The notes beneath the pieces were generated by a model, which worked only from the letters and a program-made list of their open reading frames with translations, searched no databases and was not told where the DNA came from. The position numbers and the translations under genes were made by a program. This document shows positions 4,176 through 13,192 of a stretch of 64,000 nt of DNA, one piece after another. The stretch is from Rhodothermales bacterium. GTDB lineage: Bacteria; Bacteroidota; Rhodothermia; Rhodothermales; JANQRZ01. Location: contig JBDUXZ010000023.1 of NCBI GenBank assembly GCA_039944855.1, forward strand, positions 62,001 through 126,000. Reading direction: 5' to 3'. Each line of letters starts with the position of its first letter. Position 1 is the stretch's first letter.

Positions 4176-6893
4176 ATGACGCTGCTCTACCGCTGTACGC
4201 TTCTGCTCGTGCTCGCGGCGACCGCTTTGCCCGCCGCCGCCCAACTCCCCCCGCTCGTCGACCGCGAGGTGTTCTTCGGCGACCCCGAGATCGCCGGGGG
4301 CCAGCTCTCGCCCGACGGGCAGTACCTCTCGTTCCTCAAGCCCTACGACGACGTGATGAACGTCTGGGTGAAGGGGATCGATGAGTCGTTCGATGCGGCG
4401 CGCCCGCTCACGGCCGACGACCGCCCCGTCCCCGGCTACTTTTGGAGCGAAGACGGCCGCTACGTCCTCTACGTGCAGGACAAAGGCGGCAACGAGAACT
4501 ACCACATCTACGCCGTCAACCCCTCTGCCGAGGCCGATCCGGCGACGGGCGTTCCCCCGGCGCGCGACCTCACCCCGCTCGACGACGTCCGCGCGCAGAT
4601 CCTCGCGACGCCCCAGAACAGCCCGAACGAGATCGTCGTCGGCCTCAACGACCGCGACGCGGCGTGGCACGACGTCTACCGCCTCAACCTCGAAACGGGC
4701 GAGCGCGAGCTCGTCGTGGAGAACACAGAGCGGATTGCGGGCTGGCAGACGGACCTCAACGGGAACGTCCGCCTCGGCCTCCGCATCGACCCGAAGGGGA
4801 CGACCGAGGTACTCCGCGTCGGCAACGACCTCTCCATCGAGCCGGAGCCGGTCTACACCTGCTCCGTCGAGGAGTCCTGCGGGCCCGTGCGCTACCACGA
4901 GGACGGCCGCCGCGTGTACATGATCACGAACAAGGGCGATCGCGACCTCACCGAGCTCGTCCTCTTCGACCCGGCGACGGGCGAGGAGGCCTTCGTCGAG
5001 CGCGATCCCGAGGGGCAGGTGGACTTCGGTGGCGCGCTCTTCTCGAACGCCACCGACGAGCTGATCTTGACCTATTACACCGGCGACCGGACGCGGCTCT
5101 ACCCCAAGACCGACGCCCTCGCCGCCGATCTCGACTTCCTCCGCGCGAACCTCCCCGACGGCGAGCTCGGCCTCGGCAGCCTCACGAACGACGACCGGCT
5201 GATGACGGTCCGCGTCACGCGCGACGTCGACCCCGGCTCGGTCTACCTCTTCAACCGTGAGGCGCAGACCGTCGAGAAGCTCTACACCTCGCGGCCCGAC
5301 CTCCCCGTCGAGCACATGGCGAACATGCAGGCCATCCGCTACACCGCCCGCGACGGCATGGAGATTCCGGCCTACCTCACGCTCCCGAAAGGCGTCGAGC
5401 CGACGAACCTCCCGACGATCATCTTCCCGCACGGCGGGCCGTGGGCGCGCGACACCTACGGCTACGACTCCTTCGCGCAGTTCCTCGCCAACCGTGGCTA
5501 CGCCGTGCTCCAGCCCAACTTCCGCGGCTCGACGGGCTACGGCAAGGCGTTCCTCAACGCGGGCAACAAGGAGTGGGGCACGGGGGCGATGCAGCACGAC
5601 CTCACCGACGGCGTGCAGTACCTCATCGACGAGGGCATCGCCGACGCTGGGCGCGTCGGGATCATGGGCGGCTCGTACGGCGGCTACGCCACGCTCGCGG
5701 GCGTGACGTTCACCCCGGACCTCTACGCCGCCGCCGTCGACATCGTCGGCCCGAGCAACCTCATCACGCTCCTCGAATCGATCCCACCGTACTGGGAAGC
5801 CGGCCGCGTGATCTTCCACACGCGGATGGGCGACCCGAACACGGACGAGGGCCGCGCCCAGCTCGAAGCGCAGAGCCCGCTGAACTTCGCCGACCGCATC
5901 ACGACGCCGCTCCTCGTGATCCAGGGGGCCAACGACCCCCGCGTGAAGCAGCGCGAGGCCGACCAGATCGTCGTCGCCCTCCGCGACCGCGACTACCCCG
6001 TGCAGTACCTCGTCGCGCCCGACGAGGGCCACGGCTTCCGCGGGGAAGAGAACCGCATGGCGATGATGGTGTCCATCGAGACCTTCCTCGCCGAGCACCT
6101 CCAGGGCCGCGCGCAGGAAGGCGCCGCGCCCGAGATCGAGGCGAAGCTCGAAGCCATCACCGTGGACCCCGCGACGGTCGTCGTGACCGACCCGATGGGG
6201 GCGGCGGACATGAGCGCGATGACGTTCGACGGGGCCGCCGTCCAGCCGATGGCGATGACGTACAACATCACGATGAACGTGCAGGGGCAGGAGATCGCGC
6301 TCGACAACCCGACGCGGACTGTCGCAGCCGTCGAGTACGACGGGCAGCCCGCGCTCGCGATCGTGGACCGCGCGACGCTCCCGCCGGCGATGGGCGGGAT
6401 GGCGATGGCGGACTCGTTCGTCGTCGCCCGTGCTGATTTCGCGCCGCTCTACCGGAAGCTCCAGCAGGGGCCGGGCACGATCGTGCTCACGTACTCGGAC
6501 AGCGAGGTGCAGGGCACGATGTCGCAGGGCGGGCAGTCGATGCCGTTCACGAGCGCGCTCGACCTCCCGATCGTCGCCGACAACAACGCGCTCGAAGTCG
6601 CGCTCGGCACGATGCCGCTGGCGGAGGGCTACACGGCGTCGTTCGCCACGTACAACCCGATCCCCGGCCAACAAGGCCTCGCGACGTACACCCTCGACGT
6701 CACCGGGATGGAGGAGGTCACGGTCCCGGCCGGGACGTACACGGCGTACGTCGTCGAGATGGACAAGGCCGACTCCACCGAGGACACGACGCTCTACCTC
6801 GACGCCGAGAGCGGGGTGGTCGTGAAGTCGATGTCGACGCTACCCGCGCAGGCGGGCGGCGGCACCATCATCGCCGAGTTGACGGGGATGTGA
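4176..6893 (+). CDS. Secreted S9 family prolyl oligopeptidase-like peptidase with extra C-terminal domain
   Basis: 905 aa. Residues 1-23 are a Sec signal peptide ending in AAAQ. Residues 30-390 form a beta-propeller-like region with a dipeptidyl-peptidase/acylaminoacyl-peptidase type N-terminus ([10 protein letters not shown]). The alpha/beta-hydrolase domain spans about 395-650, with nucleophile S500 in GGSYGGY, D587 in GANDPRV and H619 in DEGHGF. S9C-type enzymes usually end near here. Here a further 250 residues (about 655-905) follow, beta-rich with no catalytic signature, resembling DUF3108-type lipocalin-like domains ([28 protein letters not shown]). The gene likely acts in the periplasm or at the surface on peptides. 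It stands alone, closed by a terminator. Confidence 0.9.
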
Positions 6894-7007: not shown

Positions 7008-7859
7008 TTAGCGGCGGTTGCGGCCGGTCAGCGGGTTGTCTCCTACGATGAACGGGGCGACGATGTTGAGCACTTCCTCGGTGGTGAGCGGCTCGTCCCA
7101 CGCCTCGGTGACCTGCTCGGCCCCGATGCCGGAGACGGCCGGCACGTCGATGTTGTACTTCACCGTCTGGTTCATCCCGGCGTAGACCGCCGCGACGGCC
7201 GGAGCCGGCGACTCGTCGAACGGGATCCACCCCTGCGAGCCGCGGAGGCGGCGCACCTTCGAGGCGTGGCGCGCCTCGACGGAGTGGATGCCGAGCGCGG
7301 CCGTCAGCACCGCGCTGGCATCGATAAGGAAGGGGACCTGCCCCTTGTACGCCCGGACGCCGGTGTCCTCGAACGCCTGCGAGAGGAGCAGGAACGTCGG
7401 GTAGTCGTTGAACGGGTCCAGCGTGCCCCCGGCCGTGAAGTCGAAATCCGGGACGGGAGGATCCGGGGGCGCGGGATTCTGATCGCCCGCGATCTGAGCG
7501 ATGAGGAAATCGACGTGATCGGACTCGTGATCCGCGACGATCTCGTAAAAGGCCCGAACGTCATCTGGCATGGAGAGCGTCTTCGAATCGAGCGCCGTGT
7601 TATAGAAGTTCCGCTCGAGGTACTCGAGCGTGAGGGCGAACAGGAGCACGTCGGAGACGGTGCGCGGGTTCGACTGGGCACGGGCGGCGGAGGCGAACAG
7701 CGTGGCCGGGGCAGACGCGAACGCGAGCCCGAGGCCGACTTTGCCGAGGCTGCGGAGGGCGGCGCGGCGGGTGTTCTCCAGGGAGGCCTCCTCCGTCAGC
7801 ACGTCGGAGAGCAGGTCGGAGGCGGTCGCCGTGGGGGTATCGGTCTTGATGGGATTCAT
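7008..7859 (-). CDS. Tat-exported ferritin-like protein (copy 1, non-lipoprotein member)
   Basis: 283 aa from the ATG at 7859. A long N-region leads to a Tat-like signal, TRRAALRSLG plus a hydrophobic stretch ending SAARAQ (about residues 30-62), so export as a folded protein is likely. The rest is a four-helix ferritin-like domain of the PF13668 type. The diiron pattern is intact: Glu in LEYLERNFY, ExxH in DHESDHVDF, Glu in FEDTGVRAYKG, ExxH in HSVEARHASK. An insertion rich in Pro and Asp separates helices 2 and 3. It follows its lipoprotein partner by 66 bp and is closely related to the gene at 9398-10204. The substrate (iron storage, peroxide removal or other) is unknown. Confidence 0.85.
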   Translation of the reverse strand: MNPIKTDTPTATASDLLSDVLTEEASLENTRRAALRSLGKVGLGLAFASAPATLFASAARAQSNPRTVSDVLLFALTLEYLERNFYNTALDSKTLSMPDDVRAFYEIVADHESDHVDFLIAQIAGDQNPAPPDPPVPDFDFTAGGTLDPFNDYPTFLLLSQAFEDTGVRAYKGQVPFLIDASAVLTAALGIHSVEARHASKVRRLRGSQGWIPFDESPAPAVAAVYAGMNQTVKYNIDVPAVSGIGAEQVTEAWDEPLTTEEVLNIVAPFIVGDNPLTGRNRR

Positions 7860-7925
7860 AGTCAGGTCCTCTTCGGGTGTACAGTCCGTGTGGGGCATGC
7901 GGCTGAGCATGCGCGAGCGCGGGAC

Positions 7926-8921
7926 TTACAGGCCGGTGGGCGTGATTTCGTTTTGGATGAACGGCGCGGCTGCTGTGAGCACTTGAGTGGGGGACAACGA
8001 CCGCTCGATGGAAAACCCTCCGAGGTCGTCGCCGCCGGCGAACAGCTCGTCGAACGCGAAGTTGTTCGGGTCGATGATGTCGCGGATGGCCGCGGCGTGG
8101 CGCGCCTCAACGGACACGATCTCGCCGGCGTTCACGAGGGGGTCCACCTGGTTGATGAGGACGCCGGCTCCGTTATAAGCCGCGACGCCGAGGTCCTCGA
8201 AGGTCCGCGCCGTCTCGAGCACGCTCGTCCGGTCGCCGAAGTTGACGGCGGAGAAGTCCGTCCGGAGCCCGCGGATGGGCGTCCCGCCCTGCTCGAGGAT
8301 CTTCGCCTGGAAGAACTCGCGGTGGGCGACCTCGTGTGCGAGGAGGTCGTTGAGGACGTTCTGCTCGTCGGCGTTGAAGATGGTGCCGAACGCGGGGTCC
8401 GCGACGACGGCGGCGTAGAAGGCGGCTTCGAGTTGTTCGAGCGCGTAGGCGTAGTTGAGCACGCCGGTACGCCCCGCGAAGCTGAGTTCGAGCGGGCCGC
8501 CGGGCGCAAGGACGAAGGCCGTCGTTGCGGTCCCACCGTCGGTCACCGTGACCTCCGTCATGTCCGTGACGAAGCCGTTCGTGGACGCGACGAGGGTAAA
8601 CGTCCCCACCGGGAACTCCTCAATCGTGAAGGACCCGTCCTCCTGCGTCATCACGGTGCGGGGGATGCCGTCGTCGTCGAAGGAGATCAGGACGTCGGCG
8701 ATGCCCTCGCCGGTCTCCGAGTCGGTGACGGTCCCGGTGATGGTGCCGAAGTCGCCGGGGACGATGGGGTCGGGCGTATCGGAGTCACAGCCGGCGGCGA
8801 CGAGGACGACTCCGCCGATGCCGGCGAGCTTCAGGAAGGAGCGTCGGCTGGCTCGCGAGTCAAGCTGGGGCGAGGCCGCGTCAAGCTGGGGCTCGGTGTG
8901 GGAGCGAATCAAGTCAGACAT
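7926..8921 (-). CDS. Tat lipoprotein with carboxypeptidase-regulatory-like and ferritin-like domains
   Basis: 331 aa. The signal combines a Tat motif (SRRSFLK, residues 25-31) with a lipobox (VAAGC, Cys45), so this should be a lipid-anchored envelope protein. Residues 58-140 form a carboxypeptidase-regulatory-like beta-sandwich (GTITGTVTDSETGEGI, DGSFTIEEFPVGTFTLVAS). Residues 152-331 form a PF13668-type ferritin domain with the diiron set: Glu in LEQLEAAFY, ExxH in HEVAHREFF, Glu in FEDLGVAAYNG, ExxH in SVEARHAAA. Its paralog at 10260-10955 lacks the beta-sandwich. The ATG at 8921 (MSDLIRS) is chosen because it matches the paralog start. Confidence 0.87.
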   Translation of the reverse strand: MSDLIRSHTEPQLDAASPQLDSRASRRSFLKLAGIGGVVLVAAGCDSDTPDPIVPGDFGTITGTVTDSETGEGIADVLISFDDDGIPRTVMTQEDGSFTIEEFPVGTFTLVASTNGFVTDMTEVTVTDGGTATTAFVLAPGGPLELSFAGRTGVLNYAYALEQLEAAFYAAVVADPAFGTIFNADEQNVLNDLLAHEVAHREFFQAKILEQGGTPIRGLRTDFSAVNFGDRTSVLETARTFEDLGVAAYNGAGVLINQVDPLVNAGEIVSVEARHAAAIRDIIDPNNFAFDELFAGGDDLGGFSIERSLSPTQVLTAAAPFIQNEITPTGL

Positions 8922-9397
8922 AGGTCCGAGGAATGGTGGCTGGTGGAATGTGGTAGAGGTGCCGTCTCGTCTCACGCGGCGGACGGCGCCGGCCCAGAGG
9001 GGAGAGGCTGTGCAGGCGGCCGTGAGGAGTAGGGGTGGCCGACTTTCGGAGTCAAAATAAGGTGAACAAACGCACTGTGTGCTACTTAGTTCGATAGGGC
9101 ACGAAAACCAGACCCATCGCGGGTTCCGGTCTGAGCCCCGCCTCCGCCTCCGATATGGGGCTAGTGGAGCGCGCCATAGGCGAACGTCGGTGGGTTCGGG
9201 CGCCGCCGAGGGGGACGGCGTATCGCGGCCTCCGAGCCGCCGCTACAAACGTGCGACGAGGGGTGGCATTCGCCACCCCCCGTCGGTTCGAGGTGCTACG
9301 CTTGGACCGGGATTGAGCGGACGCACCCACGGGCGCCCATCCCACGCAAGACCTCGAAGGGTCACGGCCCGGAGAGGGCCGGGTTGTGCCGCGCGGA
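8922..9397. other. 476-bp intergenic region between the two ferritin-like pairs
   Basis: No gene with plausible composition was found on either strand. Near the left end is an A/T-richer patch; its minus-strand reading TTATTTTG (complement of 9053-9060) resembles the Bacteroidota -7 element TAnnTTTG and lies about 130 bp upstream of the gene starting at 8921. A stem-loop at 9254-9285 may end the transcript of the right-hand pair. Confidence 0.5.
9254..9285 (-). terminator. Stem-loop downstream of the second ferritin-like pair
   Basis: A 14-position stem with one mismatch around the tetraloop ATTC (arms 9254-9267 and 9272-9285). In the minus direction it is followed by CACGTTTG, which is only weakly T-rich. 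It lies about 113 bp after the stop at 9398. It could terminate or stabilise that transcript. Confidence 0.5.
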
Positions 9398-10204
9398 TCA
9401 GCCGTCGATGAACGGGCCGGCAATCGCGAGCACGTCGTCCATCGAGAGCGTCTCGTCGAACGCCTCCGTGATCTCTTCCACCGTGTAGCCGGAGAGGGCG
9501 TTGACGAGGTTGACCCCGCCCTGCGTGACGTTGTCTTCCCCGGCGTACACCGGCTGGATCGCCGCGATCGCGCCGGGCTGGGCGTTGGGAATCCATCCCT
9601 GATTGCCGCGGATCCGGCGGACGGCGGCCGCGTGGCGCGCCTCGACGGAGTGGATCTGGAGCGCGGCGGTGAGGTAGGCCGGCGTCGTGATGTTCGCGGC
9701 CTGGCCCTTGTAGGCCCGGACGCCGGTGTCTTCGAACGCCTGCGAGAGCGTGAGGAACGTGGCGTAGTCGCCGAACGGATCGAACGGGCCGCTGCCGGAG
9801 CCGTCGCCGCCGGTGAAGTCGAAGGCGTCGTCATCGAACGAGACGGGCTCGCCGCCGGCCGCGGTGATGGCGCTGGCGAGGAACGCGACGTGCGCGTCCT
9901 CGTCGGCGCTGATCCGCTCGAAGAGCGGGCGGTCGGCGGACTCGATCACGCCGGCGTCGAGCCCGAGGCGGTAGAAGGCGCTCTCGAGGTATTCGAGCGT
10001 GAGGGCGTAGTTGAGGATGTCGACGTCGGTGGCGGGGTCGAACCCGTAGTTCGAGGCCATCACTTTCTTCGCCATGCCGAAGAACGGGAGGGCGACGAGG
10101 GCCGCGCCTGCGCTGTACCGGCCGGCGGTGCGGAGGGCGTCGCGGCGGGAGGTCGGCACGTTGCCGAGGGCGTCGTCGAGGTTGCTAAAGAGATCGGTCG
10201 TCAT
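9398..10204 (-). CDS. Tat-exported ferritin-like protein (copy 2, non-lipoprotein member)
   Basis: 268 aa. A twin-arginine stretch, SRRDALRTAGRYSAG, starts at about residue 19, with a hydrophobic core to about residue 45, giving a Tat-type leader without a lipobox. The PF13668-type ferritin domain keeps all expected metal ligands: Glu in LEYLESAFY, ExxH in DEDAHVAFL, Glu in FEDTGVRAYKG, ExxH in HSVEARHAAA. Long segments match the gene at 7008-7859, including FLTLSQAFEDTGVRAYKGQ against FLLLSQAFEDTGVRAYKGQ. It starts 55 bp after its lipoprotein partner and is surely co-transcribed. The ATG at 10204 is the only sensible start. Confidence 0.86.
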   Translation of the reverse strand: MTTDLFSNLDDALGNVPTSRRDALRTAGRYSAGAALVALPFFGMAKKVMASNYGFDPATDVDILNYALTLEYLESAFYRLGLDAGVIESADRPLFERISADEDAHVAFLASAITAAGGEPVSFDDDAFDFTGGDGSGSGPFDPFGDYATFLTLSQAFEDTGVRAYKGQAANITTPAYLTAALQIHSVEARHAAAVRRIRGNQGWIPNAQPGAIAAIQPVYAGEDNVTQGGVNLVNALSGYTVEEITEAFDETLSMDDVLAIAGPFIDG

Positions 10205-10259
10205 GAGGAGTACGAGCTAGAGGAGCACAGAGAGAGTGGACGGGCGGGCGGAGCGGGGA

Positions 10260-10955
10260 TCACGCGTTGATGGCCCGGATATCGTCGATGATGAAGTCGC
10301 TCGCGGCCGTGAGCACGGCGCTCGGGGCGAGGGCGCGGTCGAGCCCGTTGGCATCGATCACGCCGCTGCCGGCGATCGAATTGGCGGAAAGCAAGCTGGA
10401 GATCACCGACGCATGCCGCGCTTCGACGGAGACGATCTTGCCTGCGATCGTGAGGAACGTGCCGTCGGAGAGGTACTGCCCGGCGCCGTTGTAGGCGGCG
10501 ACGCCGAGGTCCTCGAACACCTGCGCCGTGCCGAGCACGCTGGACCGGCTGGCGAAGTCGATGCTGGTGAAGTTGGGCGTGAGGTTCGGGATCGGCGTCC
10601 CGCCGTTCATCGCGATGGCCGCCTTGAGGAAGTCGCGGTGGATGCCTTCGTGCGCGGCGAGGTCGCGGAGGATGGCCTGCTCGTCGGCGTCGAACGTGGA
10701 CGAGAACGCCGCATTCATCACGACGGTCGCGTAGAAGGCCGCTTCGAGCTGTTCGAGCGCGTAGGCGTAGTTGAGCACGCCGAAGTCGTTCGAGAAGTCG
10801 AGCGTGACGACCCCGTCTTGCATATCGTCGGGGTCGTCGGAATCGCAGCCCGCGGCGACGAGGACGGCGCCGCCGAGGCCGGCGAGCTTGAGGAAGGAGC
10901 GGCGGCTGGCTCGGGGATCGGCCGGCGACGCGAAGGGAGAGGCTAGATCAGACAT
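10260..10955 (-). CDS. Tat lipoprotein with ferritin-like domain (short form)
   Basis: 231 aa from the ATG at 10955 (MSDLASP); an ATG six bases upstream is an alternative. The signal has SRRSFLKLAG and lipobox VAAGC (Cys37), nearly identical to the paralog at 7926-8921. The ferritin domain begins at about residue 50 (FGVLNYAYALEQLEAAFY) and retains ExxH in HEGIHRDFL, Glu in FEDLGVAAYNGAG and ExxH in SVEARHASV. There is no beta-sandwich insert. It is first in its pair and lies 194 bp downstream of the STAND ATPase gene, so the ATPase may be its regulator or head an operon with it. Confidence 0.86.
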   Translation of the reverse strand: MSDLASPFASPADPRASRRSFLKLAGLGGAVLVAAGCDSDDPDDMQDGVVTLDFSNDFGVLNYAYALEQLEAAFYATVVMNAAFSSTFDADEQAILRDLAAHEGIHRDFLKAAIAMNGGTPIPNLTPNFTSIDFASRSSVLGTAQVFEDLGVAAYNGAGQYLSDGTFLTIAGKIVSVEARHASVISSLLSANSIAGSGVIDANGLDRALAPSAVLTAASDFIIDDIRAINA

Positions 10956-11149: not shown

Positions 11150-13192
11150 TCAGGCGGCGAGTTCCCGCTGCCACAGGGCGGCGACGACGTGCTCGATCCC
11201 ACGCTTGAGGTAGCGGCGGAAGCTGCTGAACGGCATGTCGAGCTGCTCGGCGGCCTCGGCCTGCGTGCGCGCCGGGTCGAGGTAGGTCGCGTCGAGGGCG
11301 AGGTAGTACGGGGCCTCGCGCGGCGTCGCGTTGAGCTCCTCGGCGGCCTCGTTGAGCAGGGCGCGCAGCGCCTCCACCCGGTCGCCGCCGGCCGCTTTTT
11401 CGAGGACGAGGCGGGAGCGCAGGAGCGGGCTGTCGGCGAGGTCGTGGGGGCGGGCGTAGTCGCGGAGCGCGTCGCGGACGGCCTCGCCGAAGTCGGGCTC
11501 GCTGAGGACGACGAGGCGGTCCGGCCGCTCCGGCTCGGCACCCGGCGAGGAGGGCAGCCCGCGCTCGGCGAGGCCTTCGAGCCACACGCCGGGCGGGACG
11601 GCGCGCCAGTCGTGCCCGTACACCCCGAACGCTCGGCCGCCGACCTCGAAACCCGCGTCGGGCAGCCGCTGCAGGCCGACGAAGGTGAAGATCATCGCCC
11701 AGAAATCGGGGTCGGCGCACGGGAGGAACGTGTACGCGAGCCCCTCGGTGCCGAGGTAATGGCGGACGGTGGCGACGAAGATGAGGCTCTGCACGGCCGA
11801 CACGTCCTGATAGTCCTCGCGGTCCATCCAGAACCGGAAGACCGTCGCCCGCTCGCCCGGCCGGAGCGGGGCGTGGGCTTCGAGGTGAGCCCAGGCGGCT
11901 TCGGCGCAGGGGTCGGCCGCGCGCTCCTCGGCCGTCGTCGCGTCGAGGGCGAGGCAGAAGAGGAAGCCGGTCGCGTGGCCGTCCTCGTCGCGGAACACCT
12001 GCACGCGCTCGGGCTGAAGCCGGAACCAGTGCGCGGCGATCTCCGCTGCCGCCTCGCCCTCGTGGCCGCTCACGAGGGCTCGCAGCGCGTCCCACTCGTC
12101 GTCGCGCGGCTGGCCGGAGGTCTGAGGCCGCGCCTTCTGCCACTGCCCGCGGAGTTGAGCGAAGAGCGGCTGCACAATCGGATTGTGGCGGTGGAGAAAG
12201 GTGTAGTCGGCAAGCGTGGCGACCTGCTCGCGCTCGGAGCCGGTGTGGAGGAGGCGGCGGGTGTAGGCGGCGCGGGCGCGGTGGTTGAGCGCGGCGAAGC
12301 GTTCGGGGCGGCGCCAGCGAAGGTCAGCGCCGAGCGTCTCGCGGGCGAGGTCGTGGAGGATGAGCCCGTTCTCGCTGGCCTCGACGAACGAGAGGCCACG
12401 GAGCCACTCGAACGCGGCGTGAGTGTCGTCGCGCTCCAGCAGGTCGGCTAGTAACCCCTCGGTGACGACGCGGACGGTCGCCGCCGCTTCGAGCGCCGCG
12501 TGCTCGGCCTCGTCGTCGATCTCCTGCATGAACCGTGTGAGGAGCGTGCCGACGACGTCGGGCGATTCGTCCACCTGAAACGGCAGGCCCGGCTTCCGCC
12601 GGCAGTGGTCGGCGACGAGGGAGAGGGCGAGGGGGTGGCCGTGCGTGAACCGGAGGACGGCGTCGTGCTCGGCCGTCGGGACGCCCTGCTCTTCGAGGAG
12701 CGCGCGGCCCTCGTCGGGCGTGAGGTTGCGGAGGGGGAGGACGCGCGTGATCTCCTGCCAGCCGAGGTCGCCGCGCCACCCCGCGCTCGGCGCGTAGCGG
12801 CCCGCGAGCACGACGATCCACTCCTCGGACACGGTCGGCAGCAGCTCGTCGCGCAGCCAGTCGTCGAGGGGGTGGAGCGCCTCGTACGTGTCGAGGAGGA
12901 GGACGGCGCGCGCGGCGGGGAGCCCGGCGCCCGAAAGAGCCTGCCGCAGCGCGTCGGGCGCGGCGTCGAGGTCCCGCGCGTCGAGGTACGCGGCCGGGAT
13001 TCCGGACTGCCGCGCGAGGTGCTCGAACTCGCGGAGGAGCGACGTCTTCCCCACCCCGCCGGGTCCGTGGAGGTAGAGCACGTGGAACGGCAGGGAGTCC
13101 GAGCCGAGCGCGTGTTCGAAGACGGCGCGTTCCTCTTCGCGACCGACGAAGAGGGCGTGCCGGGCCGCACGAAGACGGTCTTGCAAGGACAT
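11150..13192 (-). CDS. STAND-type ATPase with C-terminal sigma-70-region-4-like HTH
   Basis: 680 aa. Residues 15-250 form an AAA/NB-ARC-like ATPase: the VGREEE entry motif, Walker A GPGGVGKT with K49, and Walker B AVLLLDTYEAL with D101. A winged-helix and helical region follows (LSFVEASENGLILHDLARETL), then a 250-residue segment of unclear fold. The last 55 residues (ALDATYLDPARTQAEAAEQL, then DMPFSSFRRYLKRGIEHV) look like a sigma-70 region 4 or LuxR-like helix-turn-helix. This is typical of signal-transducing STAND regulators that bind DNA once switched on by ATP and a ligand. It sits directly upstream, same strand, of the ferritin-like pairs. The ligand and target are unknown. Confidence 0.8.
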   Translation of the reverse strand: MSLQDRLRAARHALFVGREEERAVFEHALGSDSLPFHVLYLHGPGGVGKTSLLREFEHLARQSGIPAAYLDARDLDAAPDALRQALSGAGLPAARAVLLLDTYEALHPLDDWLRDELLPTVSEEWIVVLAGRYAPSAGWRGDLGWQEITRVLPLRNLTPDEGRALLEEQGVPTAEHDAVLRFTHGHPLALSLVADHCRRKPGLPFQVDESPDVVGTLLTRFMQEIDDEAEHAALEAAATVRVVTEGLLADLLERDDTHAAFEWLRGLSFVEASENGLILHDLARETLGADLRWRRPERFAALNHRARAAYTRRLLHTGSEREQVATLADYTFLHRHNPIVQPLFAQLRGQWQKARPQTSGQPRDDEWDALRALVSGHEGEAAAEIAAHWFRLQPERVQVFRDEDGHATGFLFCLALDATTAEERAADPCAEAAWAHLEAHAPLRPGERATVFRFWMDREDYQDVSAVQSLIFVATVRHYLGTEGLAYTFLPCADPDFWAMIFTFVGLQRLPDAGFEVGGRAFGVYGHDWRAVPPGVWLEGLAERGLPSSPGAEPERPDRLVVLSEPDFGEAVRDALRDYARPHDLADSPLLRSRLVLEKAAGGDRVEALRALLNEAAEELNATPREAPYYLALDATYLDPARTQAEAAEQLDMPFSSFRRYLKRGIEHVVAALWQRELAA

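Follow-up and report, generated by a model that had tools for sequence, protein, structure and literature searches.

Paired lipid-anchored and soluble Ferritin_2 proteins in a Rhodothermales bacterium, a candidate dimetal hydrolase of the envelope

In a 64,000-nucleotide contig stretch of a Rhodothermales bacterium (hereafter the window), four open reading frames (ORFs) lie on the minus strand at positions 7008-10955, in the gene order A1, B1, A2, B2. They make up two units of a lipoprotein gene followed by a gene for a secreted protein, in a row on the same strand, as a first-pass annotation of the window had described; the arrangement is confirmed and stands well above chance. We propose that the A-B pair is a membrane-anchored, exported dimetal hydrolase of the envelope that belongs to the Ferritin_2 family, is related to the phosphatases RvFeMP-1 and DRB0118 and would serve stress tolerance; we give this reading a probability of about 0.45. 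The enzyme family is known: what is new is the strict pairing of a lipid-anchored A with a soluble B protein and the tandem multiplication of the pair. The parts of the locus are as follows.

10260..10955, minus strand: A1, a lipoprotein of the twin-arginine translocation (Tat) route (SRRSFLK...VAAGC, continued by DSDDPDD) with a Ferritin_2 domain at about 10790-10389 (PF13668, 132 bits; TIGR01409; AlphaFold2 model).
9398..10204, minus strand: B1, Tat-exported and without lipobox, Ferritin_2 domain at about 10030-9608 (PF13668, 146 bits; placed in the tree with B proteins of the same order).
7926..8921, minus strand: A2, a second A-family Tat lipoprotein, with a beta domain ahead of its Ferritin_2 domain at about 8468-8073 (PF13668, 115 bits; PF13620, 55 bits); start ATG at 8921, a GTG at 8975 also being present.
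8508..8744, minus strand: CarboxypepD_reg-like beta domain within A2 (profile match).
7008..7910, minus strand: B2, a second B-family Tat-exported protein, Ferritin_2 domain at about 7655-7239 (PF13668, 120 bits); alternative start ATG at 7859.

All four PF13668 matches exceed the gathering score of 24.7 bits and cover the profile nearly in full (positions 1-3 to 136-137 of 138), and no other gene of the genome assembly belongs to this family. Membership among classical ferritins or bacterioferritins was not found, Ferritin_2 alone being over its cut-off and the Rubrerythrin model below. As had been noticed at first pass, members of equal position are alike: A1 and A2 are 51% identical over the 185 amino acids of the core and B1 and B2 43% over 271, against 33% for A1 and B1. 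At the DNA level, the two units form repeats that are 71-86% identical at a spacing of roughly 2.06-2.37 kb.

A Tat motif, scored by TIGR01409 above its cut-off, and the lipobox VAAGC are present in both A1 and A2; B1 and B2 show twin-arginine (RR) motifs but lack a lipobox. This division holds across homologues, the combination of Tat motif and lipobox being present in 123/149 A and 1/149 B proteins. The PF13668 matches, Tat signals and lipoboxes together support the suggestion of four exported four-helix proteins with dimetal sites, two of them lipid-anchored, as a putative envelope system. Two features had escaped the first-pass annotation. In A2, a CarboxypepD_reg beta domain (residues 78-156) is inserted between lipobox and ferritin domain, a place where A proteins elsewhere hold different inserts (by eye, a PKD-like stretch in locus L177); and A2 and B2 share a common reading frame, with one TAA between them. 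The lipid-bearing cysteine is followed by acidic residues, in A1 as CDSDDPD and in A2 as CDSDTPD, with KDD or DDDD in many relatives: positions +2 to +6 hold 1-5 acidic residues in nearly all lipobox-bearing A proteins. Because this stretch resembles the lipoprotein export signal (LES), which in Bacteroidetes species other than this host routes lipoproteins to the surface (PMC5080379), A may be located at the cell surface.

Alignment of the metal site bears out the previously noted pattern E, ExxH, E, ExxH in all four proteins and adds a second glutamate in helix 1 (LExLE). In the A family as in the B family, no fewer than 141 of 149 homologues keep each ligand position, this glutamate included, so A and B alike look like active metal proteins instead of an active one with an inert partner. 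Residues E68, E71, E103, H106, E148, G151, E178 and H181 of A1 align with E73, E76, E132, H135, E191, G194, E224 and H227 of DRB0118, and all eight of these DRB0118 residues are matched in A1, A2, B1 and B2. Here, DRB0118 was identified as DR_RS16050 (Deinococcus radiodurans MP1) by residue numbers, the numbering of PMC11616004 being reproduced with one offset. The M1 ligands, i.e. the helix-1 Glu, the helix-2 Glu and His and the helix-4 acid, correspond to E68, E103, H106 and E178 of A1 and their equivalents in the other three, and are kept in at least 144 of 149 members of each family. An M2 site of the DRB0118 type (Glu191, Gly194 and the extra Glu76) is found as well, as E148, G151 and E71 of A1 and equivalents. 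The position of Asp135 of RvFeMP-1 is occupied by Gly in all four proteins; the same replacement in active DRB0118 is accompanied by the extra helix-1 Glu (PMC11616004). By alignment, this glycine excludes the RvFeMP-1 subtype, not the family.

The pair behaves as a unit of inheritance. The first-pass annotation had proposed a survey of pair co-occurrence; among 395 Bacteroidota genomes, 55 have PF13668 genes, nine of them one weak match only (<42 bits), and in 46/46 genomes with strong matches the genes are even in number (2, 4, 6 or 8), adjacent and on one strand. In a tree built from 53 proteins of each family, a single branch at 100% divides them, with every first gene of a pair falling in A and every second in B; A and B are two ancient sister families. 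Likewise, 80/80 named GTDB loci read A then B, one of them with a broken B, and seven read ABAB or ABABAB (Hymenobacter, Pedobacter); these loci were chosen by similarity to the query, which leaves the 395-genome survey as the less biased test. The B gene of Chitinophaga sp. E66 (L144, 6602-7496) is apparently split into two overlapping frames, or carries a sequencing error. A mirror-tree comparison of 36 pairs, drawn from 15 genomes or loci that hold several, gives r 0.75 between A and B distances, a value reached in 0/5000 shufflings of partners within genomes (0.16 +/- 0.11): as A distances follow B distances, A and B remain cognate through duplications. Independent assembly of the four genes, the outcome that would have spoken against a common origin of the units, is rejected by the clean A and B clades and the co-divergence of the pairs. 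Searches of open-licence papers found no published account of the paired arrangement, and to our knowledge the Ferritin_2 proteins described to date are single ones that form homodimers.

Structure prediction places A1 next to RvFeMP-1. Its AlphaFold2 (AF2) model, with a predicted local distance difference test score (pLDDT) of 88 and a predicted template modelling score (pTM) of 0.85, best matches the RvFeMP-1 entries 8WAI, 8W9K and 8KCE (template modelling score 0.67-0.71 on the query); Rv2844, Dps-like and bacterioferritin chains rank behind these. RvFeMP-1 (8KCE) is also recovered by sequence with an A-family profile (expect value 1.6e-7); the profile was needed, a single-sequence search of the PDB with B1 returning nothing useful. 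For A2 and B2 we modelled the in-frame stretch as one chain, A2-linker-B2, with the TAA read as Gln, from an alignment of 80 rows of which 22 are natural in-frame pairs. Both bundles were confident, linker residues 199-275 were disordered, and the top Foldseek match was again RvFeMP-1. The pTM was 0.82, whereas by our own estimate independently placed bundles should yield about half; judged by this overall score, the model predicts that A2 and B2 pack together, as a candidate A-B complex. We consider it an even bet that the arrangement is a phylum-wide obligate A-B heterodimer of lipid-anchored and soluble ferritin-fold subunits, anciently split, with both dimetal sites active, and inherited and multiplied only as a pair.

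From the computed family, fold, ligand conservation, export motifs, pairing and co-inheritance we infer a phosphatase activity of A-B, its substrates, its location and its role in stress. Tat export suits a metalloprotein that is loaded with metal before export. Folding and metal uptake of A and B would take place in the cytoplasm, before exit by this route; A would be lipidated and, given the acidic stretch after its cysteine, probably reach the outer membrane and perhaps the cell surface, while B would be cleaved free and retained through pairing with A. When the cell dries out or suffers oxidative stress, the complex could then strip phosphate in the envelope from nucleotides, damaged ones included, or from sugar phosphates. 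The window would encode two such pairs, the second old and diverged beside the ancestral one. The PF13668 proteins RvFeMP-1, RvFeMP-2 and DRB0118 are phosphatases with a broad range of metabolites, nucleotides (damaged ones included) among them, RvFeMP-1 being metal-dependent and the published activity sensitive to ethylenediaminetetraacetic acid (EDTA) (PMC11616004), and a DRB0118 mutant is sensitive to desiccation but resistant to radiation (PMC1978522). The first-pass statement that the role is unknown, possibly concerned with iron or oxidants, overlooks RvFeMP-1 and DRB0118 (PMC11616004), which share PF13668 and, in the case of DRB0118, the ligand set. Because of homology and of site residues identical to those of DRB0118, we tentatively favour a similar chemistry, carried out in the envelope, at slightly less than even odds; the window proteins are more likely to be envelope hydrolases than iron stores.

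Several points weigh against this assignment. Identity to the characterised enzymes is low, about 24-34%, and the published activities are low in vitro, 1-2 orders below those of typical phosphatases (PMC11616004), which means that the family may in fact catalyse a different reaction. The set E, ExxH, E, ExxH is also that of ferroxidases and oxidases, and in place of the Asp135 that RvFeMP-1 cannot do without, the window proteins have Gly (like active DRB0118). No gene of phosphate or nucleotide metabolism consistently adjoins the pair. As to the complex, the A2 and B2 halves are homologous and as such tend to be set as a pseudo-dimer, and homodimers could explain the packing: DRB0118 and RvFeMP-1 are dimers (PMC11616004), and pairing through helix 4 counts among the features of their phosphatase group. 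Finally, the surface location of A depends on a motif tested in other Bacteroidetes.

The main rival is a redox role, in which A and B, as genuine diiron (or dimanganese) proteins of the envelope, would carry out Fe(II) oxidation or peroxide breakdown, like ferritins, Dps, rubrerythrins and Mn catalases, and the phosphatase activity of their relatives would be a side reaction. Both subunits conserve the classical ligands and exceed RvFeMP-1 in number of carboxylates; bacterioferritin and Dps-like proteins are among the fold matches as well; a Thermus relative adjoins a peroxiredoxin-like gene, and pairs of Flavobacteriia adjoin an extracytoplasmic function (ECF) sigma factor with an RskA-type anti-sigma factor. 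We nevertheless hold this role to be unlikely, though not negligible: Zn/Mg was bound in the nearest solved structure, the three family members assayed proved to be phosphatases (both PMC11616004), and the neighbourhood of the pair shows no conserved gene for an electron-transfer partner. The Thermus locus (L183, Thermus thermophilus pHC11), whose content favours redox chemistry, clusters three ferritin-like genes with peroxiredoxin-like, HD-GYP, carboxymuconolactone decarboxylase and di-heme genes. It is quite improbable that the proteins are non-catalytic protectants, helical proteins exported in abundance to buffer metals or to shield parts of the envelope during drying. The family's name-givers PCC13-62 and DRB0118 are indeed linked to desiccation, but near-invariant ligands in both subunits across the whole phylum argue for catalysis, as does the published EDTA-sensitive activity (PMC11616004).

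The second pair has a history of its own. A genome of the same family (G001) has the order RecJ, MoeA, AAA ATPase, A, B and, on the opposite strand, S9 peptidase, as in the window, with 69-83% protein identity between the flanking genes. Both G001 and a further genome (G002) hold a single pair between these flanks. Because G001 keeps the flanking order with a single pair, the window exceeds it by one pair at a conserved position, which was either gained here or lost in G001. In a tree of concatenated A and B proteins, pair 1 clusters with the single pairs of its own family (f1) and of a sister family, f12 (100/99), and pair 2 sits on a long branch outside the clade of pair 1. Two placements were rejected, although long branches may inflate these approximately unbiased (AU) tests and pull pair 2 outward: pairs 1 and 2 as sisters, as a recent local duplication would give (29 log units, AU p 0.018), and pairs 1 and 2 with the same-family pairs as one clade (AU p 0.009). 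Judged by the tree, pair 2 is best read as old and divergent, standing next to the ancestral pair, and not as recently copied from pair 1. The first-pass claim that the pair duplicated as a unit thus stands as far as the pair is the unit of inheritance, and fails in the recent local duplication that it implied.

A2 itself looks like a mosaic. Across all 126 residues, its signal and beta module share 49% identity with those of the A protein of G001; the signal by itself matches that of A1 at 92% over 24 residues (86% over 87 nt of DNA), and the ferritin core is close to neither. These differing affinities suggest exchange between copies or modular reuse within the lineage. They would also suit a ready-made pair that was acquired from a different lineage and came to lie next to the native one, with its signal region then converted to the local type. 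The long branch fits such an origin, as does an A2 core about as close to an Adhaeribacter A protein (56%) as to members of the order, and the pair does occur on plasmids of Mesorhizobium and Hymenobacter. We rate this acquisition as a minority possibility: duplication before the split of f1 and f12, with pair 2 joining the combined clade, is still allowed (AU p 0.42), the tree sets pair 2, weakly (88/51), beside the other pairs of the order, and no mobile element was seen in the locus. Outside Bacteroidota, adjacent ferritin-like pairs come from few loci, on Mesorhizobium plasmids and in a Gemmatimonadaceae metagenome-assembled genome. IS21 transposase genes lie near one pair of the Mesorhizobium plasmids (L179, L180; Alphaproteobacteria), and with the plasmid location they suggest that the pair is mobile.

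The flanks of the locus in the window are the following.

11150..13192, minus strand: AAA_16 ATPase gene upstream of A1, with MoeA and RecJ further out; the order RecJ-MoeA-AAA-pair is conserved in G001.
4176..6893, plus strand: S9 peptidase (prolyl oligopeptidase) with a C-terminal DUF3108, the other boundary of the locus, as in G001 and G002; both domains share one ORF, conserved in same-family genomes.

Between the two pairs, about 420 bases (9397-8976) hold no clear gene, and given this gap the pairs may be transcribed separately; scans for sigma-70 promoters and terminators found nothing above chance, and the gap itself showed no sigma-70 promoter-like match. No universal neighbour of the pair emerged across loci, only lineage-specific ones: RecJ in the order of the window, and ECF sigma, RskA anti-sigma and fasciclin genes in Flavobacteriia and some others. 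In Chryseobacterium, genomes g58/g168, Flavisolibacter and others, a fasciclin-domain gene stands just before A, with ECF sigma and RskA-type anti-sigma genes close by (for instance L067, 2613-4803; L076, 2058-4766; L079, 6494-8722; L157, 3195-5867). This hints at envelope-stress control of the pairs, as part of a possible stress regulon, in these lineages; the arrangement was not seen at the window locus.

Altogether, the locus offers a testable place and partner for a poorly understood enzyme family of desiccation-tolerant tardigrades, plants, fungi and Deinococcus. The near-inseparable anchored and soluble pair in Bacteroidota predicts a heteromeric envelope enzyme, and such pairing may explain the weak activity found in work on single family proteins. 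Repeated tandem growth, in Hymenobacter and others, suggests a role in dosage or substrate range that is genetically testable.

Among known systems, the tardigrade Ferritin_2 metabolite phosphatases RvFeMP-1 and RvFeMP-2 (Tar-fer; PDB 8KCE, 8WAI, 8W9K) share fold, PF13668, M1 ligands, helix-4 acid and secretion with the window proteins and, with A2, an attached beta domain, which in RvFeMP is C-terminal and IgG-like. They differ in being single genes with Asp135 in place of Gly, no lipid anchor and no partner subunit described; the extra helix-1 Glu is peculiar to the window proteins in this comparison. DRB0118, a clade 2 Tar-fer-related phosphatase, has all eight site residues, is exported and is 27-34% identical in the core, but stands alone on megaplasmid MP1, with no adjacent partner and with a longer helix 1-2 loop and C-terminus. 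Plant PCC13-62 and fungal Rds1, set alongside by description, are likewise PF13668 proteins that are secreted or stress-linked, from single genes and with the helix-3 Glu replaced by Pro or Thr (PMC11616004). Ferritins, bacterioferritins, Dps and rubrerythrin share the four-helix bundle and the dimetal carboxylate site, yet match less well in sequence and fold and form cages or redox chains where the window encodes exported A-B pairs.

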